Positions 34,431 through 61,235 of a stretch of 64,000 nucleotides of DNA are shown here, piece by piece. The position numbers and the translations under genes were made by a program. This DNA is from Roseococcus sp. SDR (GTDB taxonomy: Bacteria; Pseudomonadota; Alphaproteobacteria; Acetobacterales; Acetobacteraceae): assembly GCF_019083995.1 (NCBI RefSeq), contig NZ_JAHRCU010000001.1:62001-126000 (forward strand), in the 5' to 3' direction. The notes beneath the pieces were generated by a model that was not told the origin of the DNA, did not search any database, and saw nothing but the letters and a program-made list of their open reading frames with translations. Each line of letters starts with the position of its first letter. Within the stretch, counting starts at the first letter, position 1.

Positions 34431-35687
34431 ATGCCGCCCAGCGAGCGCAGCATCCGCACGCCTGAGACCGCGCGCATCCGCACGCCTGAGACCGCGCGCA
34501 TCCGCACGCCTGAGACCGCGCGCATCCGCACGCCTGAGACCGCGCGCATCCGCACGACCCACACCGGCAGCCTGCCGCGTCCGCGTGCGCTGACGCGGCT
34601 GCATGCGCGCCGCGCTCGCGGCGAGGTGGTGGATGCGGCCGAGGTCGCGGCCGCCGCGGCCGCCGCCGTCGCCGCCATCGTGCCGAAGCAGCGCGAGGCC
34701 GGCATCGATATCCCCAATGACGGCGAGCAGGGGCGGGAATCCTTCGTCCTCTACCTGCGCGATCGGCTGACGGGCCTCGGCGGCTCCAGCACGCGCGGCG
34801 GCTTCCAGGACATCGACGCCTATCCCGAATTCAAGGCGGAGCTGCAGGCCAGCATGGCGGGCAAGGAGACGGCCAGCGTCACCACCAACCTGCCCGCCGC
34901 CATCGGCCCCGTGAGCTACATCGGAGAGGCCGCGATGGCGGCCGAATGCGCGCAGTTCCGCGCAGCACTCGGCGAGGGGGAAGGCTTCATGGCCGCCCCT
35001 TCGCCCGGCATCCTCGCCGCCATCGTGCAGAACCAGCACTACGCGACCGACGACGCTTATCTGGCGGCGCTGGCAGCCGCCCTTGGCGCCGAGTACCGCG
35101 CCATCCTGGATGCCGGCTTCACGCTGCAGATCGATTGCCCCGATCTCGCGCTGGAGCGCCATGGCGCCTGGCAGGACAAGCCGCTCTCGGCCTTCCTCGA
35201 CTTCTCCGAACGCGTCGTCGCCGCCATCAACCGCGCCATCGCTGGCCTGCCGCGCGAGCGCATCCGCATGCATGTGTGCTGGGGCAATTACGAGGCGCCG
35301 CACGACAGCGACGTGCCCTTCGAGGACATCTGGCCCGTCATTCGTCAGGCTGAGGTCGGTGGGTTCGTGCTGCCCTTCGCCAATCCGCGCCACGCGCATG
35401 AGCATCGCGTCTTCCGCCGCCTGCCGCTGGCGGATGACCAGATCCTGGTCGCCGGCGTGATCGACACGCTGACCCATTTCGTCGAGCACCCGGAGGTGGT
35501 GGCCGAGCGCCTGGAGCGCATCGCCGAGAGCATCGGCGACGCCTCGCGCCTGATGGCCGGGACCGATTGCGGCTTCGACACCTCGGCGGGGCGCGGGCGC
35601 GTCGCCACCGATGTGGTCTGGGCGAAGCTCCGCAGCATGGCCGAGGGCGCGCGCATCGCCTCGGGCCGGCTCTTCGGCGGGGCGTGA
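34431..35687 (+). CDS. MetE C-terminal-like (cobalamin-independent methionine synthase II family) protein
   Basis: 418 residues, a single zinc-dependent TIM barrel rather than the double barrel of MetE. After a repeat-expanded N terminus comes THTGSLPRPRAL, the usual family start. The zinc/thiol site is visible as MHVCWGNYEAPH (His, Cys) and MAGTDCGFDTS (second Cys). Related single-domain proteins include epoxyalkane:coenzyme M transferases and many uncharacterised thiol alkyltransferases; a specific substrate is not claimed. The first 40 residues are five copies of RIRTPETA-type octapeptides, an expansion of the normal RIRTTHTG start. It precedes a Bug receptor by 55 bp. Confidence 0.85.
   Translation: MPPSERSIRTPETARIRTPETARIRTPETARIRTPETARIRTTHTGSLPRPRALTRLHARRARGEVVDAAEVAAAAAAAVAAIVPKQREAGIDIPNDGEQGRESFVLYLRDRLTGLGGSSTRGGFQDIDAYPEFKAELQASMAGKETASVTTNLPAAIGPVSYIGEAAMAAECAQFRAALGEGEGFMAAPSPGILAAIVQNQHYATDDAYLAALAAALGAEYRAILDAGFTLQIDCPDLALERHGAWQDKPLSAFLDFSERVVAAINRAIAGLPRERIRMHVCWGNYEAPHDSDVPFEDIWPVIRQAEVGGFVLPFANPRHAHEHRVFRRLPLADDQILVAGVIDTLTHFVEHPEVVAERLERIAESIGDASRLMAGTDCGFDTSAGRGRVATDVVWAKLRSMAEGARIASGRLFGGA
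34451..34558 (+). repeat. 24-bp in-frame tandem repeat in the MetE-like gene
   Basis: Four full units of CATCCGCACGCCTGAGACCG plus four bases start at 34451, 34475, 34499 and 34523, followed by a partial fifth that merges into the native RIRTTHTG codons. Units are identical at nucleotide level, so expansion is recent or actively homogenised. The 8-codon period keeps frame. Confidence 0.95.
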
Positions 35688-48091: not shown

Positions 48092-49248
48092 TCTTCGAGC
48101 GCTTCGGCATCACGCCCATCATCAACGCCTATGGCACGAATACGCGCCTCTCGGCCGGGCCGCTGGCCGATGAGGTGGCCGACGCCATGCGGGAGGCCGC
48201 GACGGCGAGCGTGGATATCCTCGACCTCCAGGCCGCCGCCTGCCGGGAGATCACGCGGGCGACGGGGGCGGAGGCGGGCTTCGTGACCTCCGGCGCCTCG
48301 GCGGCGCTGCTGCTCGCGGCCGCGGCCTGCCTCGCGCGGCTCGATGCGGGTGCCATGAACCGGCTGCCGGCGGTGCGCGAGGGGCGCTGCGAATTCCTGA
48401 TCTCCCGCAGCCAGCGCAACATGTATGACCGCGCGATCGAGACGGCGGGCGGGCGGCTCGTGGATGTCGGCATTCCGGACCGCGTCTCGGGGGCGGGCGT
48501 GCGCGATGCGAGTGCGGCGGAGTTCGCCGATGCCATCACGCCGCGCACGGCCGGGATCGTCTTCGTGGCGCAGCCGCAGGCCGAGCCGCCGCTGCCCGAG
48601 ATCGTGGCCGTGGCGCGGGCGGCGGGGATTCCGGTGATCGTGGATGCGGCGGCGCAATTGCCGCCGGCCGGGAATCTACGGCGCTTCATCGCGGAGGGCG
48701 CGGACCTCGTCGCCTTCTCGGGCGGCAAGGCGATCGGCGGGCCGCAGGCTTCGGGGATCCTGGCGGGGCAGGGGGTGCTGGTGGCCTCGGCGCTGGCGCA
48801 GATGCTGGACCTCGACCTGCCGGCCGCGCAATTCCGCGCGCCGGCCGAGTTTCCGGCCCTCTCGCAGCTCGCCTTCTTCCCGCGCACCGGCATCGGCCGC
48901 TCCTGCAAGGTGGCGCGGGAAGAGGTGATGGGGCTGCTGGTGGCGCTGCGCCGCTTCGTGAATGAGGATGCGGCCACGCGGCGGGCGGGCTGGCAGGCGC
49001 GGCTCGACGCCGTGCGGGCCGCCTCGGGCTTGGATTTCGAGGCGGGCGCGGCCGGCGAGGTGCCGCTGCTGCTCTTGCGCCTGCCCGATGCGCGCGCGGT
49101 CGAGGCGCGGCTGCGCGCGGGCCGCCCCGCCGTGCATGTGAACCCGTCGCGCCTGGCCGAGGGCATCCTCACCATCAACCCCATCAGCCTGCATGAGCGG
49201 GATGCGCCGCGTCTCGGCGAATTGCTGCGCGCGGCCCTTGCCGGGTGA
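48088..49248 (+). CDS. SelA-like PLP-dependent enzyme (DgaE-type lyase/aminotransferase V fold)
   Basis: 386 residues. [20 protein letters not shown] is the standard opening of SelA-related proteins; [20 protein letters not shown] binds the PLP phosphate and [15 protein letters not shown] contains the Schiff-base lysine. It is shorter than true selenocysteine synthase (about 460) and no selB, selC or selD is nearby, so a D-glucosaminate-6-phosphate ammonia-lyase-like or other beta-elimination role is more likely. Start overlaps glpK stop (ATGA); AtuA follows by 38 bp. Confidence 0.85.
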
Positions 49249-49286
49249 CGCGGCACGGCGAAGACTGGCGGCACAGGGAGATGACA

Positions 49287-50666
49287 ATGGACCGCTTTCT
49301 CGTCGGCAATGGCGCGGGCTTCTCGGGGGACCGCGTGGATGCGCCCTTGCCGGTGCTGCGCACCCTGATCGCGAGCGGCCTGCCCTCCGCGATGTTCTTC
49401 GAGACGCTGGGCGAGCGCACCGTGGCGCTGGCGCATCTGGAAAAGCGCCGCGACCGCGAGGCGGGCTATGAGCCCATGCTGGAGCGGCTGCTGGAGCCGA
49501 TCCTGGCGCTGGCGAAGCAGCATGGCATCCCGCTGCTGGGCAATTGGGGCGCGGCCAATCCGCCCGCCGCCGCGCGGGCCGTGGCGCGGCTCGCCTTGGC
49601 CCAGGGGATGCCTGATCTGCGCATCGCGCTTGTCGAGGGGGATGACGTGACGGGCCTCGTCGCCGGCGGGCAATTGCCGGTGCATGAGGCGGATGCGGGG
49701 CTCGACATGGGCGCCTGGAACCTCATCGCCGCCAATGCCTATATCGGCGCGGAACCGCTGGTGGAGGCGCTGGCGCAAGGGGCCGATGTGGTGGTCGCCG
49801 GCCGCACCAGCGACCCGGCGCTCGCCATCGCACCTCTCGCGCATCACTTCGGCTGGCGTGCCGATGATTGGGAGAAGCTGGCACTGGGGGCGGCCACCGG
49901 TCACCTGCTGGAATGCGGCAGCCAGGTGACGGGCGGCGTCTTCTGGGACCCGGGCTTCAAGGACATCCCCGACCCCGCGAAGATCGGCTTTCCCATCGCG
50001 GAAGTGACGCGGGACGGCGGCCTCGTCATCACCAAAGCGGCGAACACCGGCGGCCTCGTGGATCTGCGCACGGTGAAGGAGCAACTGCTCTATGAGCTGC
50101 ACGACCCGGCGCATTACATCACGCCCGATGTGGTGCTCGACATCACCGGCTGCACGGCCGAGCAGGTTGGCCCGGATCGCGTGGCGGTGCGCGGCCTGCG
50201 CGGCCATCCGCGGCCGGACACGCTGAAGGTGACGGCGAGCTTCGAGGGAAGCTGGCTGGGCGAGGGCGAGGTCTCTGTCGCCGGTCCCAATGCGCTGGCC
50301 CGCGCCCGCGCCACGGCCGATGTGCTGTTGCAGCGCATGAAGATCCGCGGCCTGGAGGTGCGCGCGCGCGTGGACCTGATCGGCGTCGCCAGCGTGCATG
50401 ACAGCGATGATGGCGCGCTCTGGCGCGGCTATGACGGGCCAGAGCCGCCGGAAATCCGCATCCGCCTCGCCGTCGAGGCGCGGACGCGCGATGATGCCGA
50501 CCAGGCCTCGCGCGAGGTGCTGGCGCTGCTCTGCTGCGGCACGGCGGGCACGGGGGGCGCGCGCTGGCGCGTGACACCGCGCATCCTGACGCGCAGCCAC
50601 CTGGTGCTGCGCGAGCGGGTGCCCGTGACGGTCTCGGTGAAGACGGCGCGGGAGATCCTGGCATGA
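49287..50666 (+). CDS. AtuA/DUF1446 family acyl-utilisation protein
   Basis: 459 residues from the ATG at 49287 (GGGAG 7 bp upstream; an ATG two codons earlier is too close to the ribosome site). FLVGNGAGFSGDRVDAPLPV opens the DUF1446 domain; GRTSDPALAIAPLAHHFGW, ATGHLLECGSQVTGGVFWDP and VRGLRGHPRPDTLKVT follow. AtuA is required for acyclic terpene (citronellol/geraniol) catabolism in Pseudomonas, yet its reaction is unknown and many homologues lie outside terpene clusters. Coupled by ATGA to the small AtuA-like protein. Confidence 0.88.
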   Translation: MDRFLVGNGAGFSGDRVDAPLPVLRTLIASGLPSAMFFETLGERTVALAHLEKRRDREAGYEPMLERLLEPILALAKQHGIPLLGNWGAANPPAAARAVARLALAQGMPDLRIALVEGDDVTGLVAGGQLPVHEADAGLDMGAWNLIAANAYIGAEPLVEALAQGADVVVAGRTSDPALAIAPLAHHFGWRADDWEKLALGAATGHLLECGSQVTGGVFWDPGFKDIPDPAKIGFPIAEVTRDGGLVITKAANTGGLVDLRTVKEQLLYELHDPAHYITPDVVLDITGCTAEQVGPDRVAVRGLRGHPRPDTLKVTASFEGSWLGEGEVSVAGPNALARARATADVLLQRMKIRGLEVRARVDLIGVASVHDSDDGALWRGYDGPEPPEIRIRLAVEARTRDDADQASREVLALLCCGTAGTGGARWRVTPRILTRSHLVLRERVPVTVSVKTAREILA

Positions 50667-51004
50667 TCGAGGTCCCCCTGCATCAGGTCGCGCACAGCCG
50701 CGCGGGCGACAAGGGCAACCGCCTCAACATGTCGCTCATCCCCTACCGGCCGGAGCTTTACCCGATCCTCGCCGAGCAGGTGACGGCGGAGCGCGTGCTG
50801 GCGCTGTTCCGCCACCGTGGCGCGACCGCCTGCGTCCGGCATGATCTGCCGCTGCTGCACGCCTTCAACTTCGTGGTGGACGAGGTGCTGGAGGGCGGCG
50901 TGAATGGCAGCCTGAACCTGGACGGGCATGGCAAGACGAATTCCTTCCGCCTGCTCGAACTCACCGTGACCATCCCCGAGGCCCTGCTGGAGAGACAAGC
51001 ATGA
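50663..51004 (+). CDS. AtuA-like ferredoxin-fold small protein
   Basis: 113 residues. VPLHQVAHSRAGDKGNRLNM, VTAERVLALFRH and DGHGKTNSFRLLELTV mark the small domain that follows AtuA either fused or as a separate subunit. No Fe-S cysteines are present despite the fold name. It overlaps the AtuA stop and the next receptor's start by ATGA, so the three products are probably made in proportion and AtuA plus this protein likely form a complex. Confidence 0.87.
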   Translation: MIEVPLHQVAHSRAGDKGNRLNMSLIPYRPELYPILAEQVTAERVLALFRHRGATACVRHDLPLLHAFNFVVDEVLEGGVNGSLNLDGHGKTNSFRLLELTVTIPEALLERQA

Positions 51005-51966
51005 AACGTCGCGCCCTGCTCGCCGCCGCTGCGGCCTCGCCCCTGGCCGCGCAAGCGCAGACGACGGATTGGCCGCGCCAGCCCATGCGCATGATCCTGC
51101 CCTTCGCCTCGGGCGGCGTGACCGATCTGACCGCGCGGCTGCTGGCGCCCGGGCTGCAGCACCGCCTGGGCCAGCCCGTCATCATCGAGGGCCGCACCGG
51201 CGCGGGCGGCACCATCGCCGCCGAGGTGGTGGCGCGCGCGACGGATGGCCACACGCTGTTCAGCACCACGGGCGCCACCAACAGCATCGCCCCCGCGCTG
51301 TTTCCCGCGCTGCGCTACGACCCGGTGCGGGATTTCCAGCCGATCAGCTTCATCGCCCGCGTGCCGCATGTGGTGCTGGTGAACCCGGCCTCCGGCATCA
51401 CCAATGTGCAGGAGCTCATCGCGCTGCTGCGGCGGGAGCCGGGGCGGCACAATTACGTCTCCACCGGCGCGGGCTCCATCACCCATCTGGCGCCGGAGCT
51501 CTTCCTGCAATTGGCTGGCGTGCAGGCGACGCATGTGCCCACGCGCGGCTCTGGCCCCGCCATCCTCGAGCTGCTGGCCGGGCGCGTCACTTTCATGATC
51601 GACGCGCTGGCGCCCGCCATCGGCCAGGTGCAGCAGGGCAGCCTGCGGGCGATCGGCGCGGGGACGAAGACGCGCATCCCCAACCTGCCCGAGCTGGTGC
51701 CGGTGGCCGAGCAGGGGCTGCCGGAATTCGAGAGCTACACCTGGGCCGCCATCTACATGACCGCCGGCGCGCCGCCCGCGGTGGTGCAGAGGCTGCACGC
51801 GGCGACGGTCGCCACGGCACGGGACCCCGATGTCTCGCGCCGCTTCTTCGAGCTGGGCTATGAGCTGGTGGCCTCGACGCCCGAGGAACTGGCCCGCATC
51901 CAGCAGGAGGAGTTTGTGAAATGGGGCGCGGTGATCCGCCGCGCCGACATCAAGCCGGAGAGCTGA
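51001..51966 (+). CDS. Bug/TctC-family periplasmic solute receptor (4 of 4)
   Basis: 321 residues. Signal peptide MKRRALLAAAAASPLAAQAQ. Mature landmarks: QPMRMILPFASGGVTDLTAR, EGRTGAGGTIAAEVVARATDG, LLAGRVTFMIDALAPAIGQV and PNLPELVPVAEQGL. Last gene of the glpK-SelA-like-AtuA module, joined by an ATGA overlap, so it most probably captures the substrate of that pathway. A 7-bp hairpin AGCGGGC / GCCCGCT covers the stop region (51966-51987) and could be a weak terminator. Confidence 0.92.
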   Translation: MKRRALLAAAAASPLAAQAQTTDWPRQPMRMILPFASGGVTDLTARLLAPGLQHRLGQPVIIEGRTGAGGTIAAEVVARATDGHTLFSTTGATNSIAPALFPALRYDPVRDFQPISFIARVPHVVLVNPASGITNVQELIALLRREPGRHNYVSTGAGSITHLAPELFLQLAGVQATHVPTRGSGPAILELLAGRVTFMIDALAPAIGQVQQGSLRAIGAGTKTRIPNLPELVPVAEQGLPEFESYTWAAIYMTAGAPPAVVQRLHAATVATARDPDVSRRFFELGYELVASTPEELARIQQEEFVKWGAVIRRADIKPES

Positions 51967-52041: not shown

Positions 52042-53133
52042 ATGATGCGACCGGAACGGCTCGAGGCTTTGCGTTTCGCGGGGTATGCGCCCCGCACCCT
52101 GCTCGATGTGGGCGCCCATCTCGGGCATTTCACGCAAGGGCTGCGGCAGGTCTTCCCCGATTGCGTGCCGACGCTGATCGAGCCCAACCCACATTGCCTG
52201 CCGGCGCTGGCCGCCACCGGGCATGAGGTGCTGGGCTTCGCCGCGAGCCATGAGAATGGCGAGGCGGAGCTGTTCCTGACGCGGGAATGGCTGCAATCCA
52301 CCGGCACCTCGCTCTATCGCGAGAACACGCCTTTCTTCCGCGACGAGGTGCTGATCCGCACGCCCGTGCCCAGGCGCAGGCTGGATGACGTGCTGGCCGG
52401 CCGCCGCTTCGACCTGGTGAAGATCGACACCCAGGGCGCCGAGCTGGACGTGCTGCTGGGCGGGCAGGCGGTGCTGCGCCAGGCGGATTACATCCTGATC
52501 GAGGTCTCGCTCGTCGAATACAACCAGGGCGGCGCGCGGGCGGAGGAGGTGTTCGCCGCCCTTTCCGCGCTCGGCTTCCGCAGCGCCGAGGTGGCGGAGT
52601 TCCACCGCCTGCGCGGGGTTCAGGACGGCGCGCTGCTGCAGCTCGACTTCCTCTTCGAGCGAGAGGTGCCGCGCCCGTCCCAGGCGCTGCGTGGGCCGGT
52701 GGCCGGCCTCCCGGCCTGGCTCGCCGAGCGGCGCGCGCGCTGCGCGGATTTCGCCGTGCTGGCCGTGGGCGAGGCGGGGTTCGACGCGGATGTGGGTTTC
52801 GGCGCGCCCGGTGCGCCGCTGACCATTGCGGGCGATCCTGCGCGGCTGCGGGACTGGGACGCGCTGCTGCGCCTCGCCGCGCGCCAGGGCCGCTTCCCCT
52901 ATGCGGTGGCGCGGCTGCCGCCGGGGCGTCTCGCGGAGGCGAGCCTGCTGCTCGACATGCTGCCGCGCGTCGCTGCCGCCGGCGTGGTCGAAGCCATGCC
53001 TGGCCAGAACTGGCATTGGGAGGCGGGCGAGGGCGGCCTGCGGCTGGCGCCGGGCCGCCAGCCGATGCCGGCCTTTCTCCAATGGCGCGGCGCCATCGCC
53101 TTCGACACGCAGCCGGCGCGCAAGGCGGCGTGA
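52042..53133 (+). CDS. FkbM family SAM-dependent methyltransferase
   Basis: 363 residues. Motif I TLLDVGAHLGHFTQGLR, acidic loop LIEPNPHCLPAL and the FkbM signature RRRLDDVLAGRRFDLVKIDTQGAELDVLLGG (seen in pieces) fill the first 210 residues; the C-terminal 150 are not recognised. FkbM enzymes O-methylate sugars or other hydroxyls on natural products, glycans and glycoproteins. It is 149 bp upstream of the octapeptide-repeat protein and co-directional, so it could modify that protein's glycans. Hairpins GCCGGC / GCCGGC and CTCGC / GCGAG (52005-52037) crowd its ribosome site. Confidence 0.88.
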   Translation: MMRPERLEALRFAGYAPRTLLDVGAHLGHFTQGLRQVFPDCVPTLIEPNPHCLPALAATGHEVLGFAASHENGEAELFLTREWLQSTGTSLYRENTPFFRDEVLIRTPVPRRRLDDVLAGRRFDLVKIDTQGAELDVLLGGQAVLRQADYILIEVSLVEYNQGGARAEEVFAALSALGFRSAEVAEFHRLRGVQDGALLQLDFLFEREVPRPSQALRGPVAGLPAWLAERRARCADFAVLAVGEAGFDADVGFGAPGAPLTIAGDPARLRDWDALLRLAARQGRFPYAVARLPPGRLAEASLLLDMLPRVAAAGVVEAMPGQNWHWEAGEGGLRLAPGRQPMPAFLQWRGAIAFDTQPARKAA

Positions 53134-53207
53134 GGGCGCCGAAAAAATTTCGCGCGATTCACGAATTGTAAGCCTTCGCCTGGGAATTTCGTGATGCGGG
53201 AGTGGTG

Positions 53208-53270
53208 TTTCCAGAGAGCACCCCTCAGAGAAGCCGGCAGCAAGACGCTGTGTTCCGCCCTCTCTGGAAA
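53208..53270 (+). promoter_or_regulatory. Long-range inverted repeat in the leader of the repeat-protein gene
   Basis: TTTCCAGAGAG (53208-53218) and CTCTCTGGAAA (53260-53270) pair perfectly over 11 bp with a 41-nt loop. The 3' arm abuts the AAGGA ribosome site (53270-53274) of the ATG at 53282. Upstream, 53139-53190 is notably AT-rich for this genome (AAAAAATTTCG, AATTGTAAG, GGAATTTCGTG) and probably contains the promoter. Confidence 0.6.
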
Positions 53271-53281
53271 AGGAATGCGCC

Positions 53282-56200
53282 ATGTCCATCTCGCTGCTCT
53301 CGACCAACCAGATCCGCGCGCTGACGACCACCTCGGTGGCGGCGCTCTCGACCACGCAGATCAGCGCGCTGACCACGACCCAGATCGGGGCGCTCAGCAG
53401 CTCTGCCGTCGAGACGATGAGCGCCACGCAGATCGGTGCGCTCTCGACCTCGCAGGTGCGGGGCCTGACCGCGACGCAGATCCCCTATCTCGCCGCGCAG
53501 CTGAGCTTCAGCGGCGACCAGCTCGCCGTGCTGGGCGAATTCCAGGTGCGGGCACTGACCACGACGCAGCTTTCCGGCCTGGATGCGACGAAGGTCGCCG
53601 CACTCACCACCTCGCAGATCCGCGCGCTGACGACGACGCAGCTGGGCGCGCTGACGGCGACCGATATCGGTGAGTTCACCAGCACGCAGGTGCGCGCGCT
53701 GACGGTGAGCCAGGTGGGGGCGCTGGCCTCGACCCAGGTCGCGGCGCTCAGCACCACGCAGCTCTCGGGTCTCACCGCCTCGCAGATCGGCGGCCTGACG
53801 GCGACGGGGCTCTCCGCGCTGGATGCCACCCAGGTGGGTTCGCTCAGCAACACGCAGATCGGCGGCGTGACGGCGACGCAGGTCCGTGGCCTCTCCACCA
53901 CGGATGTGGGCGAGCTTTCCGCGACGCAGGTGGGCGCCCTGAATGCGTCGCAGATCGGCGCATTGAGTGCCACGAACCTCTCCGCGCTGGACGAGACGCA
54001 GATGGGCGCGCTGAGCGGCACGCAGCTGCGTGGGCTCTCCACCACGCAGGTGCAGGGGCTGACGACGACCGACCTGGGTGAGCTGAGCGCCACGCAGGTG
54101 GGGGCGCTGACCGCCTCGCAGGTCGGTGCGCTCTCGGCCACCAGCCTCTCTGCGCTGGACGCGACGCAGGTCGGCGCGCTCAGCACCACGCAGGTGCGGG
54201 GCTTCACCAACACGCAGCTGGGTGGGCTTTCCACCACGGATGTGGGCGAGCTGAGTGCCACCCAGATCGGCGCGTTGAGCGCGACGCAGCTGGGGGCCAT
54301 GGGCACGACGAACCTTTCGGCCCTGTCGGCCACGCAGATGGGCGGGCTGACGGCGTCGCAGATCGGCGGGCTGAGTGCGACGGCGCTGTCGGGCTTCGAT
54401 GCGACGCAGATGGGGGCGCTGAGCACGACGCAGTTGCGGGGTATCACCGCGACCCAGATGGGCGGGCTGAATGCCACGGATGTGGGTGAGTTGAGCGCCA
54501 CGCAGGTGGGTGGGCTGGCCGCCTCGCAAATCGGTGGCCTGACGGCGACGGGGCTTTCGGCGCTCGATGCGACGCAGATGGGGGCGCTGAGCAACACCCA
54601 GCTTGGTGGGGTGACGGCGACGCAGATCCGCGGTCTCACGGCGACGGATGTCAGCGAGTTGAGCGCCACGCAGGTGGGCGCCCTGAATGCGTCGCAGATC
54701 GGCGCATTGAGTGCCACGAACCTCTCCGCGCTGGACGCGACGCAGATGGGCGCGCTGAGCGGCACGCAGCTGCGTGGCCTCTCCACCACGCAGGTGCAGG
54801 GGCTGACGACGACCGATCTGGGTGAGCTGAGCGCCACGCAGGTGGGGGCGCTGACGGCCTCGCAGGTCGGTGCGCTGAGCGCGACCAGCCTTTCCGCACT
54901 GGACGCGACGCAGGTGGGCGCGCTCAGCACCACGCAGGTGCGGGGCTTCACCAATACGCAGCTGGGTGGGCTTTCCACCACGGATGTGGGCGAACTGAGT
55001 GCCACGCAGATCGGCGCGTTGAGCGCGACGCAGCTGGGGGCCATGGGCACGACGAACCTTTCGGCCCTGTCGGCCACGCAGATGGGCGGGCTGACGGCGT
55101 CACAGATCGGCGGGCTGAGTGCGACGGCGCTGTCGGGCTTCGATGCGACGCAGATGGGGGCGCTGAGCACGACGCAGCTGCGGGGTATCACCGCGACGCA
55201 GATGGGCGGGCTGAACGCCACGGATGTGGGTGAGCTGAGCGCCACGCAGATCGGCGGGCTGGCGGCGACGCAGGTCGCTGGGATGAATGCCACGGCCTTC
55301 TCCGCGCTCGATGCGACGCAGATGGGGGCGCTGAGCAACACGCAGCTGGGCGGCGTGACCGCCACGCAGATCCGCGGCCTGACAGCGACGGATGTGGGCG
55401 AGCTGAGCGCGACCCAGGTGGGGGCGTTGAACGCGTCGCAGATCGGCGCATTGAGTGCCACGAACCTCTCGGCGCTGGACGAGACGCAGATGGGCGCGCT
55501 GAGCGGCACGCAGCTGCGTGGGCTCTCCACCACGCAGGTGCAGGGGCTGACGACGACCGATCTGGGTGAGCTGAGCGCCACGCAGGTGGGGGCGCTGACC
55601 GCCTCGCAGATCGGTGCACTGAGCGCGACCAGCGTCTCGGCGCTGGACGCGACGCAGGTGGGCGCGCTCAGCACCACGCAGGTGCGCGGGCTGACCAATG
55701 CGCAGCTGGGTGGGCTTTCCACCACGGATGTGGGCGAGCTGAGCGCGACCCAGATCGGCGCGTTGAGCGCCACGCAGCTGGGGGCCTTGGGGGCGACCAA
55801 CCTGGCCAGCCTCTCCGAGACGCAGATGGGCGGCCTGACCGCCTCGCAGATCGGCGGCATCTCGGCGACCGCCCTCTCCGCCTTCGACGAGACCCAGGTC
55901 GGTGCGCTGAGCACGACGCAGCTGCGCGGCGTCACCGCGACGCAGATGGGCGGCCTGAACGCCACCGATATCGGTGAGCTGAGCGCCACGCAGATCGGGG
56001 GCCTCGCGGGGACGCAGATCGGCGGCATGAGCGCGACCGCCTTCTCCGCGCTGGATGCCACGCAGATGGGGGCGCTCAGCAACACCCAGCTGGGGGGTGT
56101 GACGGCGACGCAGATCCGCGGGCTGACGGCCACGGATGTGGGTGAACTGTCCGCCACGCAGGTGGGGGCGCTCAGCACCTCGCAGATCGGCGCGCTGAGT

Positions 56201-57313
56201 GCGACGAACCTCTCGGCGCTGGACGAGACGCAGATGGGCGCGCTGAGCGGCACGCAGCTGCGGGGGCTCTCCACCACGCAGGTGCAGGGCCTGACGACGA
56301 CCGATCTGGGTGAGCTGAGCGCCACGCAGGTGGGGGCTCTGACGGCCTCGCAGGTGGGCGCCCTCTCGGCCACCAGCCTCTCGGCGCTGGATGAGACCCA
56401 GGTCGGTGCGCTCAGCACCACCCAGGTGCGGGGCTTCACCAACACGCAGCTGGGTGGCCTCTCCACCACGGATGTGGGCGAGCTGACCGCGACCCAGATC
56501 GGCGCGCTGAGTGCGACGCAGCTCGGCTCGCTCGGCGCCACCAACCTGGCGAGCCTGTCGGAAACCCAGATGGGTGGGCTGACCGCCTCGCAGATCGGTG
56601 GGCTGACGGCGACCGTGCTGTCGGGTTTCGATGCGACGCAGATGGGGGCGCTGAGCACCACGCAGCTGCGCGGCATCACCGCGACGCAGATGGGCGGCCT
56701 GAGTGCCACCGATATCGGTGAGCTGGATCAGACGCAGATCGGCGGGCTTGCCGCATCGCAGATCAGCGGGCTGACGGCGACGGCGCTCTCGGCCATGGAT
56801 GCCACGCAGATGGGAGCGCTCAGCAACACGCAGTTGGGCGGCGTGACCGCCACGCAGATCCGCGGCCTGACGGCGACGGATGTGGGCGAGTTGAGCGCCA
56901 CGCAGGTGGCGGCGCTGGGCGTCTCGCAGATCGCGGCGCTTTCCGCCACCAACCTCTCCGCCCTGGACGCCACCCAGGTGGGGGCGATGAGCACGCTGCA
57001 GCTGCGGGGCTTCACCACCACCCAGGTGCAGGGTCTCTCCAGCACGGATATCGGCGAATTCTCCGAGACCCAGCTCTCCTCGCTGAGCGCCTCGCAGATC
57101 GGCGCGCTCACCACAACGGTGATCGGCGCGCTGAGCACGACCAACATGGAGCCGCTGACCTCCACGCAGATCCGCGCCCTGACGACGACGCAGATCGACC
57201 AGCTCTCCACCACCAACATCGCCTCGTTGAGCGACACGCAGTTGGCCGGCTTCGACGCGACACAGGTGGGCAGCATGTCGGATGAGCAGATCACGGCCTA
57301 TCTCCGCCTGTAA
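53282..57313 (+). CDS. Giant octapeptide-repeat protein, Ser/Thr/Gln-rich
   Basis: 1343 residues, almost wholly built from octapeptides of consensus (A/G)L(S/T)xTQ(I/V)(G/R), for example ALSTTQIS-ALTTTQIG. Leu at position 2 and Ile/Val at 7 are nearly fixed; position 3 is Ser, Thr, Asn or Asp and position 6 Gln, so each unit has an S/T-x-x-Q helix-capping box. No signal peptide, cysteines, membrane helix or RTX motif; only residues about 67-85 and the end (MSDEQITAYLRL) depart from the pattern. About 165 units are present. I recognise no named domain. A structural or surface role and O-glycosylation by the next gene's product are inferred. AAGGA lies before the ATG. Confidence 0.9.
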   Translation: MSISLLSTNQIRALTTTSVAALSTTQISALTTTQIGALSSSAVETMSATQIGALSTSQVRGLTATQIPYLAAQLSFSGDQLAVLGEFQVRALTTTQLSGLDATKVAALTTSQIRALTTTQLGALTATDIGEFTSTQVRALTVSQVGALASTQVAALSTTQLSGLTASQIGGLTATGLSALDATQVGSLSNTQIGGVTATQVRGLSTTDVGELSATQVGALNASQIGALSATNLSALDETQMGALSGTQLRGLSTTQVQGLTTTDLGELSATQVGALTASQVGALSATSLSALDATQVGALSTTQVRGFTNTQLGGLSTTDVGELSATQIGALSATQLGAMGTTNLSALSATQMGGLTASQIGGLSATALSGFDATQMGALSTTQLRGITATQMGGLNATDVGELSATQVGGLAASQIGGLTATGLSALDATQMGALSNTQLGGVTATQIRGLTATDVSELSATQVGALNASQIGALSATNLSALDATQMGALSGTQLRGLSTTQVQGLTTTDLGELSATQVGALTASQVGALSATSLSALDATQVGALSTTQVRGFTNTQLGGLSTTDVGELSATQIGALSATQLGAMGTTNLSALSATQMGGLTASQIGGLSATALSGFDATQMGALSTTQLRGITATQMGGLNATDVGELSATQIGGLAATQVAGMNATAFSALDATQMGALSNTQLGGVTATQIRGLTATDVGELSATQVGALNASQIGALSATNLSALDETQMGALSGTQLRGLSTTQVQGLTTTDLGELSATQVGALTASQIGALSATSVSALDATQVGALSTTQVRGLTNAQLGGLSTTDVGELSATQIGALSATQLGALGATNLASLSETQMGGLTASQIGGISATALSAFDETQVGALSTTQLRGVTATQMGGLNATDIGELSATQIGGLAGTQIGGMSATAFSALDATQMGALSNTQLGGVTATQIRGLTATDVGELSATQVGALSTSQIGALSATNLSALDETQMGALSGTQLRGLSTTQVQGLTTTDLGELSATQVGALTASQVGALSATSLSALDETQVGALSTTQVRGFTNTQLGGLSTTDVGELTATQIGALSATQLGSLGATNLASLSETQMGGLTASQIGGLTATVLSGFDATQMGALSTTQLRGITATQMGGLSATDIGELDQTQIGGLAASQISGLTATALSAMDATQMGALSNTQLGGVTATQIRGLTATDVGELSATQVAALGVSQIAALSATNLSALDATQVGAMSTLQLRGFTTTQVQGLSSTDIGEFSETQLSSLSASQIGALTTTVIGALSTTNMEPLTSTQIRALTTTQIDQLSTTNIASLSDTQLAGFDATQVGSMSDEQITAYLRL
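53770..57110 (+). repeat. 744-bp higher-order tandem repeat (about 4.5 copies)
   Basis: Beyond the 24-bp unit, the array repeats every 744 bp (248 residues, 31 octapeptides). The segment encoding ALNASQIGALSATNLSALD recurs with exact spacing at 53941, 54685, 55429, 56173 and 56917 (reference base before AATGCG or its equivalent). Copies 1 and 2 share long runs with only scattered third-base changes; the later copies are more diverged. This pattern indicates growth by unequal recombination of whole 744-bp blocks. Confidence 0.88.
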
Positions 57314-57334
57314 GGCCGAACAGAGGAGGACAGG

Positions 57335-59305
57335 ATGTCCGAGACCCTCGCCATGACCCTGGCAGCCCTGGTGGCGGAGGCGCAGCGCCTCGCCACCGCC
57401 GGTGAGCGCGCGGCGGCCAGCCGGCTCTATGCCGGCTGGATCGCGGCCCATCCGGCCGATCCGCAGCTCTACATCGCCCGCTTCAACCATGCCTGCCTGC
57501 TGACTGATCTCGGCCAGGTCGAAGCCGCGCGGGAAGCGTTGCAGGTCTGCCTCACGCTCAATCCGGATTTCCTGCCGGCCAGCATCAATCTCGGCGGGCT
57601 GCTGGAGCGGGCCGGCCAGGTGCCGCAGGCGATCGAGCAATGGCAGGGGGTGGCGCAGCGCGTTGTCGCTGTCACCGGTGCCGCCATCGCCTACAAGCTG
57701 ACCGCCCTGAAGCAGATCGCGCGTGTGCTGAGCGAGCACCAGAAGCCCGCCCTGGCCGAGGCGATGCTGCGCCAATGCCTGGAACTGCAGCCCGATCAGC
57801 GCGACGTGATCGAGCAGTTGGTGGCACTCCGCCTCGTGCAATGCGCCTGGCCCGTGCTGCCGCCCGGCGACGCGGCGGAGCGGCGGCGCCTGCTGCGCGG
57901 GACGAGCCCGCTCTCCATGCTGGCCTATACGGATGATCCGTGGCTGCATCTGGGCCTCGCGCATCACTATGCGCGCTGCCTCGTGGATGAGACACGCGAC
58001 CTCTCGCGTCATGACCGGCGGAGCGCTGCCATCACACCAGGGGGGCGGCGGCTGCGCATCGGCTATGTCTCCTCGGACCTGCGCGACCACGCGATCGGCA
58101 CGCTGATGGCCGAGGTGTTCGAGCTGCATGACCGATCGCGCGTCGAGGTCACGGCCTATTATTGCGGCCCACCCTCCTCCGCACCGCTCCAGGCCCGCAT
58201 CAAGGCCGCTGTGGAGCATTGGGTGGAGATCCGCGACCTGGACGACGACGCCGCGGCGGCGCGCATCGCGGCCGATGAGATCGACATCCTGGTGGATGTG
58301 AACGGCTACACGCGCGATGCCCGGACGGCGCTCTTCGCGCGGCGGGCGGCGCCGGTGCAGGTGAACTGGCTCGGCTATCCCGGCACGCTGGGGACGCCCT
58401 GGCACCACTACATCATCGCCGATCCCTGGATCATCCCGCCCGAGGCCGAGCGGCATTACTCCGAGCGCGTGCTGCGCCTGCCCTGCTACCAGCCCAATGA
58501 CCGCAAGCGCGTGATCGCGCCGACACCCAGCCGGGCCGCGGCCGGCCTGCCGGAGCAGGGCTTCGTCTTCTGCTGCTTCAACGCCGCGCAGAAGCTCTCC
58601 CGCTTCACGCTCGAGCGCTGGATGCAGATCCTGCTGGCGGTGCCGGGCAGCGTGCTCTGGCTGCTTGATTCCGGGGAGGAGATGCGCGCCAATCTGCGCG
58701 CCTTCGCCGCCGCCCGCGGCGTGGCCGAGGGGCGCCTCGTCTTCGCGCCCAAGATCAACAATGCCGAGCATCTGGCCCGCTATCGCCTCGCGGACCTGTT
58801 CCTCGATTCCGTGCCCTATGGGGCGCACACCACGGCGTCGGATGCGCTCTGGCTCGGCGTGCCGGTGCTGACGCTGTCGGGCCGCAGCTTCGCCTCGCGC
58901 GTCTGCGGCAGCCTGGTGCGGTCGGCCGGCCTGCCCGAGATGGTCTGCGCCACGCCGGATGAGTATGTGCGCCGCGCCATCGCCCTCGCCGAGGAGCCGA
59001 GGGAGCTGGCCCGCCACCGCCGGACCCTGGCGGCACAGCGCGGCCGCTGCGACCTGTTCAACATGGAGAAGCTGGTGAAGCGGCTGGAGGCGCTGTTCCT
59101 CCAGGCGGCGCGCGCGCACAAGGCCGGCCGCACGCTGGAGCCGCGGCTCGACAATCTCGACGCCTATCTCGAGATCGGCGCCTCGCTCGACCATGAGGCG
59201 GAGGAGATGCTGGCGCTGCCTGACCTGGACGCGCTGTATCGCGCGCGCCTCTCGCGGCGGCACGCGGTGCGGCCCATGCCGGCGGATGGGCGGCTCTGGT
59301 CCTGA
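57335..59305 (+). CDS. SPINDLY-type O-linked glycosyltransferase (OGT, GT41-like) with TPRs
   Basis: 656 residues; starts 22 bp after the repeat-protein stop with GAGGAGGACAGG upstream. N-terminal 190 residues are TPR-like (YIARFNHACLLTDLGQVEAA, PASINLGGLLERAGQV). The C-terminal GT41 part has RIGYVSSDLRDHAIG, VNGYTRDARTALFARRAAPV, VNWLGYPGTLGTPWHHYIIAD, CCFNAAQKLSRFTLERW and PYGAHTTASDALWLGVPVLT, all typical of bacterial SPINDLY/OGT proteins. These attach GlcNAc, fucose or another sugar to Ser/Thr in the cytoplasm. The gene order makes the Ser/Thr-rich repeat protein the obvious substrate. Confidence 0.92.
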   Translation: MSETLAMTLAALVAEAQRLATAGERAAASRLYAGWIAAHPADPQLYIARFNHACLLTDLGQVEAAREALQVCLTLNPDFLPASINLGGLLERAGQVPQAIEQWQGVAQRVVAVTGAAIAYKLTALKQIARVLSEHQKPALAEAMLRQCLELQPDQRDVIEQLVALRLVQCAWPVLPPGDAAERRRLLRGTSPLSMLAYTDDPWLHLGLAHHYARCLVDETRDLSRHDRRSAAITPGGRRLRIGYVSSDLRDHAIGTLMAEVFELHDRSRVEVTAYYCGPPSSAPLQARIKAAVEHWVEIRDLDDDAAAARIAADEIDILVDVNGYTRDARTALFARRAAPVQVNWLGYPGTLGTPWHHYIIADPWIIPPEAERHYSERVLRLPCYQPNDRKRVIAPTPSRAAAGLPEQGFVFCCFNAAQKLSRFTLERWMQILLAVPGSVLWLLDSGEEMRANLRAFAAARGVAEGRLVFAPKINNAEHLARYRLADLFLDSVPYGAHTTASDALWLGVPVLTLSGRSFASRVCGSLVRSAGLPEMVCATPDEYVRRAIALAEEPRELARHRRTLAAQRGRCDLFNMEKLVKRLEALFLQAARAHKAGRTLEPRLDNLDAYLEIGASLDHEAEEMLALPDLDALYRARLSRRHAVRPMPADGRLWS

Positions 59306-61123
59306 TCAGGCGGCGGCCGGCAGGCTCGCCATGTCGAAGCCGTGGAAGAGCGAGAGGAAGAGGAAGGGGTTGGGCTGCCAGCGCGGATACATCACATTGT
59401 TGATGTCGGCCGTCGTGTCGAACCAGCCGAAGCGTGCATCGCTGGCGTTCCAGCAGGCCTGCAGCCCGCATTGGTCAATCCAGCGCGTGACATGCGGCGC
59501 GGCCAGGGCCGTCTCCAGATAGGCCTGCAACGCGGTGAGGTAGGCGCGGCCGCCCTCCGTCGGGAAGGCCATCAGCAGGTTGGCGGTGATGTGGCTGCCG
59601 AAGGCGCTGCTCGCCTCGTTGCGGTTGAGCACGATGTCGCAATCGCCGAAGCGGGCGAGAAGTTCGCCCACGCCGCGCTGCAGGACGCTGTCGATGTCGG
59701 AGACAAGAAGGGGCAGGCGCAGCTCCTCCAGCACGCGACGCGCCATGGCGAAGCGCGTGCACTGGAAATGCGCGACCGGCAGCGCGCGCGGGCCGTCGCT
59801 GTCATGGCATTGCGTGGTCACGGCGCCGGGTGCGAAGGCATCGGTGCTGTAGAAGATGCGCGGGTCGGGCATGTCCATCAGCGCGATCAGCTCGGCCAGC
59901 TTTCCGGCCCCGCCGATCACATGCACCAGGATGACGCAGGGCAGCCCGGCATGGCGGAGGAGGGAGGCAAGATAGGCCCGCCCGTAGAGGCGCAGATAGG
60001 CGGGATCGGCCGCGACGACGAAGGCGAGCCTTGCGCCGCGCGCCTCGCGCCGCAGCCCGGCCCAGGTGAGCGGCGGCCCCTCGGCCCGGTGCAGCTTCGT
60101 GACGGGCAAAGGGGGCGCCGGGCGGCCGAGCAGCGCGGGATCGGCGGCTTCGGCGAGGTGGCGGTAATGGCGCGCCCAATGGCGCGCCTCGCCCTCGGGC
60201 AGCAGCATGGGTTCCACGCCGCGCGCGGCGGCGATCAGCCCCTGCACGGCGTCGCGGCCGGCGGCGTCGAGGGGGTGAAGCATGTGCAGGCTGATGGCGC
60301 GATGCGCCTCATGCAGGCGGCGCAGCGGGTGGATCGCGCCGGGTGGCGCCAGGGCCAGGGCGGCGCGTGCGGCCAGCTCGGCCGCCGCGTCGCCCTCCGC
60401 CTCGGCCTGCTCCAGGCGCAGGAGGTTGGCCGCGACATGGCCGGGATCGCAGGCCAGCAGGGCGCGGGCGAAGGCCATGGCGCGCGCCGCTCGGCCGAGC
60501 TGCCGGTTGCAGGCCACCGCCGCTTCCAGCACGGCGGCGTTGTCCGGCTGGAGATCGGCGAGGGCCGAGGCGATGCGCTCGGCCGCCGCGATCTCGCCGG
60601 CGGCGATGGCCTGGTTGAAGGCGAGGAGCGCGCCTGGCGCTGCCTCGGTGCCGCCCAGCGCCAGCGCCTCCGCCCAGGCTTCCGCCGCGATGAGGCGCTC
60701 GGTCAATGCGGTGCGGGCTGGCGGATGCCGGGGCGCCAGCAGGCGCAGCAGGGCCAGCGCCTCCTCGGGCGGGAGGGTGGCGGCGCGCGCCTGAAGCGCG
60801 GCCGCCTCCGCGCTGGGCAGCGCGGCGGGCGCAAGACGGCGCGCCAGCACGAACACCCCCAGCGGCGCGAGCACATGACCGGCGAGATGCTGCGCGACCT
60901 CGATGGGCAAGGCCGCCGCGCGCGGCCAGGCGATCCAGCGGGCTTGCAGATCCGCCTCCTGCAAGGCGGCGGGCTCGCTCAGCCAGACCAGATCGGCCGG
61001 GTCGCCGGTGGGCAGGCCATCGAGGCCCGGCGGCGCGGGGCCGCGCCGCGTGACGCGGGGCGCGTGGCCAAGCCGCGCGAGAAGCGGCGCGAAGGGGCAG
61101 GGGGCGGAGAAGGGTTCGGCCAT
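59306..61123 (-). CDS. TPR plus DxD glycosyltransferase-like protein
   Basis: 605 residues from the ATG at 61121-61123 (MAEPFSAPCPFAPL). The middle (about 150-290) is Ala/Leu-rich helical repeat (EAWAEALALGG, FNQAIAAGEIAAAERIASAL, AVACNRQLGRAARAMAFARA), TPR-like. The C-terminal part (about 380-600) has ARLAFVVAADPAYLRLYGRA, LLVSDIDSVLQRGVGELL with a DxD, and DIVLNRNEASSAFG, consistent with a nucleotide-diphospho-sugar transferase fold. No membrane helix. Its stop is immediately next to the OGT stop (convergent). Likely a partner glycosyltransferase of the repeat-protein locus; inference. Confidence 0.72.
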   Translation of the reverse strand: MAEPFSAPCPFAPLLARLGHAPRVTRRGPAPPGLDGLPTGDPADLVWLSEPAALQEADLQARWIAWPRAAALPIEVAQHLAGHVLAPLGVFVLARRLAPAALPSAEAAALQARAATLPPEEALALLRLLAPRHPPARTALTERLIAAEAWAEALALGGTEAAPGALLAFNQAIAAGEIAAAERIASALADLQPDNAAVLEAAVACNRQLGRAARAMAFARALLACDPGHVAANLLRLEQAEAEGDAAAELAARAALALAPPGAIHPLRRLHEAHRAISLHMLHPLDAAGRDAVQGLIAAARGVEPMLLPEGEARHWARHYRHLAEAADPALLGRPAPPLPVTKLHRAEGPPLTWAGLRREARGARLAFVVAADPAYLRLYGRAYLASLLRHAGLPCVILVHVIGGAGKLAELIALMDMPDPRIFYSTDAFAPGAVTTQCHDSDGPRALPVAHFQCTRFAMARRVLEELRLPLLVSDIDSVLQRGVGELLARFGDCDIVLNRNEASSAFGSHITANLLMAFPTEGGRAYLTALQAYLETALAAPHVTRWIDQCGLQACWNASDARFGWFDTTADINNVMYPRWQPNPFLFLSLFHGFDMASLPAAA

Positions 61124-61235
61124 CCTGGCGCGTCTCCTTGGCGGGTTCGGCCGGGAGCGTCGCAGGGCGCGGTTAACGAAGCGCAAAGGCTGGGCGGCAA
61201 GGCTTTCTTTACCGCGCCGCGCCTAGGACCGAGGC

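Follow-up and report, generated by a model that had tools for sequence, protein, structure and literature searches.

We found that, in genomes carrying a giant octapeptide-repeat protein of the ALTTAQ type, the presence of one clade of GT41 glycosyltransferases, here called clade A, predicts serine or threonine (Ser/Thr) at position 4 of the octapeptide (octad). The starting point was a four-gene locus in a 64,000-nucleotide (nt) stretch of Roseococcus sp. SDR (contig NZ_JAHRCU010000001.1, positions 62,001 to 126,000; hereafter the window), in which the repeat gene lies beside a clade-A GT41 gene. This locus is probably a dedicated cassette, in which the fixed columns of a repeat solenoid would be O-glycosylated in the cytoplasm, and the product then decorated and exported. 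We infer the glycosylation, the use of sites, the sugar, its extension and methylation, the export and the role of the product from the gene content, linkage, enzyme clades and position composition that were observed, and from a predicted fold. The four genes are listed below.

52042-53133, plus strand: FkbM-family methyltransferase, 363 amino acids (aa), with PF05050 and TIGR01444
53282-57313, plus strand: ALTTAQ octapeptide-repeat protein, 1343 aa, with PF20080, the proposed glycan acceptor
57335-59305, plus strand: clade-A GT41 with TPR and an OGT-type GT-B domain, 656 aa, the proposed O-glycosyltransferase of octad position 4
59306-61186, minus strand: glycosyltransferase-like (GT-like) protein with TPR-like helices and an alpha/beta domain, the proposed glycan-extending glycosyltransferase

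The open reading frames (ORFs) lie where a first-pass annotation of the window had placed them; the start of the GT-like gene alone differs, at 61186 instead of 61123, the latter being an in-frame ATG 21 codons inside and a possible alternative start. The repeat and GT41 genes are as close as had been described, with a spacing of 21 nt and not 22, and the GT41 and GT-like genes do abut tail to tail, at 59305/59306. The gene before the repeat gene was confirmed as an FkbM methyltransferase by PF05050 (E 4.5e-18, 66.4 bits against 22.7) and TIGR01444 (E 5.3e-20, 72.3 bits against 37.7).

The description of the 1343-residue protein as nearly all octapeptides also held. Its 163 octads span 97% of the chain and follow the pattern L1-[ST]2-x3-[ST]4-Q5-[IVL]6-x7-x8, with Ser/Thr at position 4 (p4; other positions likewise) in 96% of them. 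PF20080 (ALTTAQ_rpt) matched in 52 stretches (E 5.3e-159, 516 bits against a gathering score of 26.4). No run of this octad was detected when the initial 53 kb of the window were filtered for such runs in six frames. Thus, the octads are far beyond chance. The protein contains 374 Ser/Thr, 17 aromatic residues and no Cys. Within the gene, a super-repeat of 248 aa (31 octads, 744 bp) was detected, with a DNA identity of 78% overall and at most 96% locally. A shorter copy, of 599 aa, was seen in genome G014, compared with 1343 aa in G000 and G005 (loci L063, 5918-9949, and L065, 4786-6585). The shortfall is exactly three 248-aa super-repeats, and could be real length variation or a collapse in the assembly of a metagenome-assembled genome (MAG).

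Residues 1-320 of the repeat protein were modelled from the single sequence with AlphaFold2 (AF2). The predicted local distance difference test score (pLDDT) was 90 and the predicted TM-score (pTM) 0.79, and one of the five models fell to 40. The model mostly has one helix of 5-6 residues per octad, beginning at p3. In our reading of the model, p2 would be the helix N-cap, the Gln at p5 would form the capping box, and p3 and p4 would lie in the first helix turn. A beta-solenoid, an idea that arose from an analogy with octapeptide ice-nucleation repeats, was set aside in view of the all-helical model. The solved chain 9zem ("HeliScrew4", 120 residues) has the same kind of octad (ALTPEQIA-like), a likeness taken from the entry name and the sequence match only; the match is ungapped over 101 residues at E 2.9e-11, a value inflated by composition, since plant leucine-rich-repeat (LRR) kinases match the repeat protein as well (up to E 7e-10). 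The octad likeness is still visible. A Foldseek search with the model (53282-54241) returned human mesothelin on top (E 1.4e-4, TM 0.24-0.37, five chains with E < 0.001). This likeness is weak and plays no part as evidence of relation.

The GT41 protein matched PF13844 in two stretches (E 1.8e-79, 267.9 bits against a gathering score of 25). Among solved relatives, XcOGT was closest (E 1.9e-85 over residues 114-595), followed by human OGT (about 5e-81). The enzyme had been called a SPINDLY-type OGT, of which the OGT part stands; SPINDLY, at 8e-48, is far behind both, and membership of that subfamily was ruled out. An HMW1C-type N-glycosyltransferase was ruled out as well, since the NCBIfam NGTferase model gave 36.6 bits against a cut-off of 1000. 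H252, K420 and H498-T499-T500, which we take to be catalytic and donor-site residues by their roles in OGT, align with OGT and were invariant in eight clade-A members.

A quick maximum-likelihood tree was built from 92 GT41 sequences. They were drawn from 182 candidates by taking every sixth of the named loci and discarding duplicates and sequences shorter than 400 aa. In this tree, 42 ALTTAQ-linked enzymes formed one clade (A; SH-aLRT support 100) and 35 enzymes a second clade (B; SH-aLRT 96). The other GT41s classified from those genomes fell outside A and B. The window enzyme (57335-59305) grouped with that of Humitalea rosea inside a Caulobacterales/Hyphomonadaceae group, apart from the bulk of the clade-A enzymes from Acetobacteraceae, the family of the window; this placement suggests horizontal transfer of the cassette. 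In a ranking of named genomes by GT41 identity, two pond MAGs of Acetobacteraceae come first (84-86%) and Humitalea rosea next (65%); this ranking is from one scan, in which very near genomes may be absent. Two further arrangements were seen among the loci. One (L337, G700:C53) has a 2099-aa frame with what seem to be three GT41 units in tandem (matches at contig positions 17.9, 19.8 and 21.8 kb), and the stretch of L068 has two GT41s.

We then consider the linkage of the two genes, for which genes were called by simple ORF heuristics. In the 5.0-Mb genome of the window, all 36 ALTTAQ matches fell in a single frame, as did the two GT41 pieces in another, so that the adjoining pair comprises the sole ALTTAQ gene and the sole GT41 gene detected. 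ALTTAQ was present in 5 of the 21 genomes of the genus. Four of these (G000, G005, G014 and, over two contigs, G015) keep the FkbM, repeat, GT41 and GT-like genes. In the fifth (G010), the GT41 is of clade B and is accompanied by HlyB and HlyD. Across the family, ALTTAQ was detected in 42 of 249 sampled genomes (E 1e-6) and GT41 in 128 (E 1e-10); 41 of the 42 ALTTAQ genomes had a GT41, compared with 87 of the 207 others (Fisher p 9e-13). In 35 of the 42, the ALTTAQ gene shared its contig with a GT41 of clade A or B that lay no more than a few kb away; the seven that lacked such a neighbour were G080, G131, G147, G192, G205, G255 and G257. Across the class, ALTTAQ was found in 7 of 387 genomes (E 1e-7), the window genome counted.

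Named genomes were also scanned with the clade-A alignment, and the best 80 of 283 loci were taken. An ALTTAQ frame lay directly upstream on the same strand in 75 of the 80, with Caulobacter, Phenylobacterium, Hyphomonadaceae, Magnetospirillum, Azospirillum and Telmatospirillum among the taxa. Two of the five misses start at a contig end (L198 and L256) and two are on contigs under 6 kb with less than 1 kb upstream (L181 and L229), leaving L225 as a true miss. The neighbourhood check that had been proposed, for GT41 genes beside octapeptide-repeat ORFs, thus showed linkage kept across genera and orders.

The Ser/Thr content of the octads was compared among loci with clade A only, clades A and B, and clade B only, after loci with fewer than 12 octads had been dropped. 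The fraction of Ser/Thr at p4 was 0.61-0.96 in the 12 A-only loci, 0.67-0.95 in the 13 A+B loci and 0.02-0.30 in the 16 B-only loci, and that at p3 was 0.25-1.00, 0.78-0.96 and 0.68-1.00, respectively. Expressed as a rule, p4 is at least 0.61 in 25/25 loci with clade A and at most 0.30 in 16/16 B-only loci. Over genus means, p4 differed by 0.66 with A (permutation p 5e-5) and p3 by 0.19 with B (p 0.009), and p2 and p7 showed no effect of enzyme clade. Four genera (g1, g48, g73 and g93) contain both kinds of locus, and all follow the p4 rule. When A was mapped as present or absent on a tree built from 29 B enzymes, three changes were counted, each followed by p4; phylogenetic generalised least squares (PGLS) on this tree gave a p4 slope of 0.64 (t 13.2) and |t| of at most 1.8 for the other positions, the root and the PGLS weights being rough because row L134 has a very long branch. 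Among 75 named clade-A loci, the mean of p4 was 0.79 (minimum 0.51), and p4 was above p3 in 70.

The p4 rule was fixed as a prediction beforehand and applied to 25 further genomes of the family. It held in 17/17 scorable loci, 12 with A (p4 0.70-1.00) and 5 B-only (p4 0.00-0.33). These genomes fall short of full independence, since most are from genera already sampled (g17 and g4 were new). The set comprised 31 stretches from 24 of the 25 genomes (G752 was left out); of the unscored stretches, 11 fell short of 12 passing octads and 3 held no GT41. The p4 values of these three (L311 0.70, L317 0.90 and L334 0.11) agree with the A+B, A+B and B enzymes, respectively, found elsewhere in their genomes. 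Two of the 11 stretches short of octads, both with an enzyme, were rescued by a looser filter and also agree (L314 0.88; L333 0.27, with 11 octads).

Thirteen loci had octads but lacked an A or B GT41 in their stretch; they were kept out of the counts. Where A or A+B was found elsewhere in the genome, p4 was 0.92 (L066), 0.86 (L075), 0.67 (L149) and 0.85 (L152). Where B only was found elsewhere, p4 was 0.04 (L069), 0.10 (L071), 0.07 (L084), 0.31 (L088) and 0.52 (L092). L093, from a genome with no whole A or B GT41 classified (G131), gave 0.30; L145 and L155 have no A/B enzyme. The last, L148 (G407:C1), is a second, unlinked ALTTAQ copy with p3/p4 of 0.30/0.32, compared with 0.95/0.85 for L147. 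This copy, which lies away from the GT41 genes of a genome that holds an A+B cassette, resembles the proteins of genomes in which neither enzyme was found. In 5/5 scorable genomes of that kind, p3 and p4 were both poor in Ser/Thr: 0.29/0.34 (G294) and 0.21/0.31 (G205), where part of the GT41 matches was classified and the absence of A/B is partial to that extent, 0.29/0.24 (G383, 17 octads), 0.06/0.12 (G257, 17 octads) and 0.07/0.00 (G678, 14 octads). The ALTTAQ gene of G192 was not located, and G255 had no scorable octads.

The earlier proposal of a dedicated pair of substrate and OGT is thus supported in part, by the conserved linkage and by a composition that tracks the enzyme clade, and its FkbM and GT-like partners by recurrence in part of the clade. 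FkbM homologues were found in 18 of the 80 named clade-A loci, GT-like homologues (> 200 bits) in 23, and either in 29; in 10, the two domains are fused. Both are therefore cassette members in part of clade A. The FkbM protein is proposed to O-methylate the glycan. Searches of Pfam and NCBIfam at E 1 gave no match for the GT-like protein. Its AF2 model (pLDDT 85) has TPR-like helices at 125-346 and an alpha/beta domain at 385-590, and an SDID motif (S496-D497-I498-D499) is invariant in a 16-member alignment. The 50 Foldseek matches listed of 1377 were to OGT/SPINDLY, to TPR proteins and to one capsule-synthesis enzyme; TM to full OGT chains did not exceed 0.19, and no GT-A family was evident among them. 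The protein is an unproved candidate for a GT-A glycosyltransferase with a metal-binding DxD, and its proposed part is glycan extension.

The absence of type I secretion genes had been remarked on. This is correct for the window, in which no HlyD-family match was detected, and not for the genome, whose other contigs carry two ABC + HlyD pairs (HlyD 389 and 374 bits, cut-off 209), nor for many relatives. An HlyB-type ABC protein and/or HlyD was found in 17 of the 66 stretches of the first set, many of which are cut by contig ends, and in 14 of the 17 scorable loci of the new set; these calls were Pfam-checked on examples. No N-terminal secretion signal was seen by eye in the repeat protein. An N-terminal signal is not required of type I substrates, and the last octads are alike, by eye, across many loci. 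The secretion puzzle is thus partly answered by the HlyB/HlyD genes of related cassettes.

We propose the following mechanism. Each octad would form one short helix, in which Ser/Thr at p2 is the cap and Gln at p5 closes the capping box, and the octads would stack into a long solenoid. The clade-A GT41 would bind the solenoid in the cytoplasm, probably via its TPR domain, and add a sugar to the p4 Ser/Thr of most octads, giving regular sugar columns on the fibre; in relatives, the clade-B GT41 would serve p3. The GT-like protein may then extend the sugar and FkbM O-methylate it. In many relatives the fibre would be exported by the HlyB/HlyD type I system of the cassette, and in the window genome perhaps by one of the two type I systems elsewhere in the genome, and the exported product may act as a surface or matrix fibre. 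More tentatively, with chances that we put a little short of even, the two clades form a code: A would write the p4 column and B the p3 column, gain or loss of an enzyme would rewrite its column, and exported fibres would bear one or two sugar stripes.

Several observations weigh against the cassette as proposed. The enzyme and the composition could be tied by co-inheritance without any modification. The three independent changes on the B tree give a sign test p of 0.25, and with three pairs only this test cannot reach significance. Position p8 also shifts slightly with A (0.04, p 0.036), and p4 of L092 (G175, where only clade B was classified; 21 octads, no GT41 in the stretch) is the intermediate 0.52 given above. 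The relation of p3 to B is one-way, since all B loci are at 0.68 or above while A-only loci range from 0.25 to 1.0; because L136, L139 and L320 are A-only with type I genes and keep a high p3, a high p3 does not require B, against a strict code. As for linkage, the ALTTAQ and GT41 genes are unlinked in G080 and G147, G257 carries, next to a poor ALTTAQ-like frame, a GT41 that falls outside both clades, and in G255 no GT41 was found in the family scan at 1e-10. As for the fold, the E-value of the 9zem match is inflated by composition, as the LRR kinase matches show, and AF2 can be over-confident on repeats, with a bias reported towards beta-solenoids (PMC11795689). Export is the weakest step, because HlyB (> 500 bits) or HlyD (> 50 bits) was found in 0 of the 80 named clade-A stretches, and the best ABC match of the window genome to the cassette exporter of relatives has 35% identity, those paired with HlyD having 30% and 29%.

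These points bear on four other explanations. The repeat and GT41 genes might be co-inherited and the p3/p4 pattern be a hitch-hiking by-product of separate repeat lineages, not a record of acceptor sites. Repeat arrays homogenise, so one ancestral difference would be copied to all octads, and this fits the few independent switches and the A-only loci with high p3. We nevertheless regard it as unlikely: Ser/Thr occupies both positions in 13/13 A+B loci though the enzymes come from two clades, on the B tree p4 changes with A while p2, p3, p7 and p8 do not clearly do so, and the proteins are poor at both positions in the genomes where neither enzyme was found, as is the unlinked L148. It is improbable to a similar degree that the GT41 glycosylates the repeat protein and the product remains cytoplasmic, forming a scaffold or storage-like body, with the HlyB/HlyD of relatives exporting something else or only paralogues of the type I kind. 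The lack of an N-terminal signal by eye, the 80/80 named clade-A stretches without HlyB/HlyD and the lack of a close exporter homologue in the window genome would all agree with such a product, whereas the recurrent HlyB/HlyD adjacency (17/66 and 14/17), the type I pairs present in trans in the window genome, the alike final octads and the general independence of type I substrates from N-terminal signals argue for export.

TPR domains bind proteins, and the GT41 might then be a chaperone or assembly factor that holds the solenoid without glycosylating it. The invariance of the catalytic and donor-site residues in eight clade-A members speaks against this, a binding role explains the Ser/Thr columns poorly, and we consider it very unlikely. 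Chance adjacency of unrelated genes is refuted by the linkage counts, and its probability is negligible.

The cassette proposed here resembles three known systems in part. In HMW1/HMW1B/HMW1C of Haemophilus influenzae, a cytoplasmic GT41-related enzyme is encoded with one giant secreted multi-site substrate (PMC3983070; PMC3012730), which provides a precedent for an enzyme of this kind dedicated to one giant secreted protein (PMC3983070). HMW1C differs in that it targets Asn, has an AAD in place of TPR and acts on a Sec/two-partner adhesin, whereas the window cassette has an OGT-type enzyme with TPR, Ser/Thr columns and helical octads, and type I genes in relatives. FlmG of Caulobacter crescentus, also alphaproteobacterial, is a soluble enzyme with TPR and GT-B parts; it glycosylates the protein of a secreted polymer ahead of export, and is thus a tested precedent for that order of events. 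The protein in question is flagellin, which leaves through the flagellar system, and the modification needs pseudaminic acid (PMC7591256). The serine-rich repeat proteins of Gram-positive bacteria with accessory Sec are repetitive adhesins; in common with the proposed cassette, they are O-glycosylated by dedicated enzymes and then exported by a dedicated route. They differ in the repeat and the secretion route. Their glycosyltransferases belong to other families.

No description of ALTTAQ proteins, of a GT41-repeat pairing or of a position rule was found in the open-licence PMC papers searched. The suggestion that no system of this make-up had been described agrees with this as far as the pairing goes; the repeat itself was already catalogued, as Pfam family PF20080. 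Since both families are known while the pairing and the position rule have no earlier description that we found, the site rule would be new if confirmed. Site choice by OGT-type enzymes is an open question. Site choice in flagellin O-glycosylation is likewise called open in one report (PMC7591256). Here, two natural enzyme clades predict from sequence whether one octad position is Ser/Thr; therefore site choice becomes testable with short repeat segments. A function is also suggested for a Pfam repeat family for which no paper was found in the same literature, and, if the proposal is true, the product would show that protein fibres with regular glycosylation occur in nature.

Two other genes were annotated upstream of the cassette.

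49245-50666: AtuA-family acyclic terpene utilisation gene (PF07287, E 1.5e-129), upstream of the TctC receptor gene and the cassette
51001-51966: TctC receptor gene, between the AtuA-family gene and the cassette

Short, near-perfect tandem repeats were also seen in the window, at 2732-2890 (54 bp x 2.9) and 34445-34556 (24 bp x 4.6).

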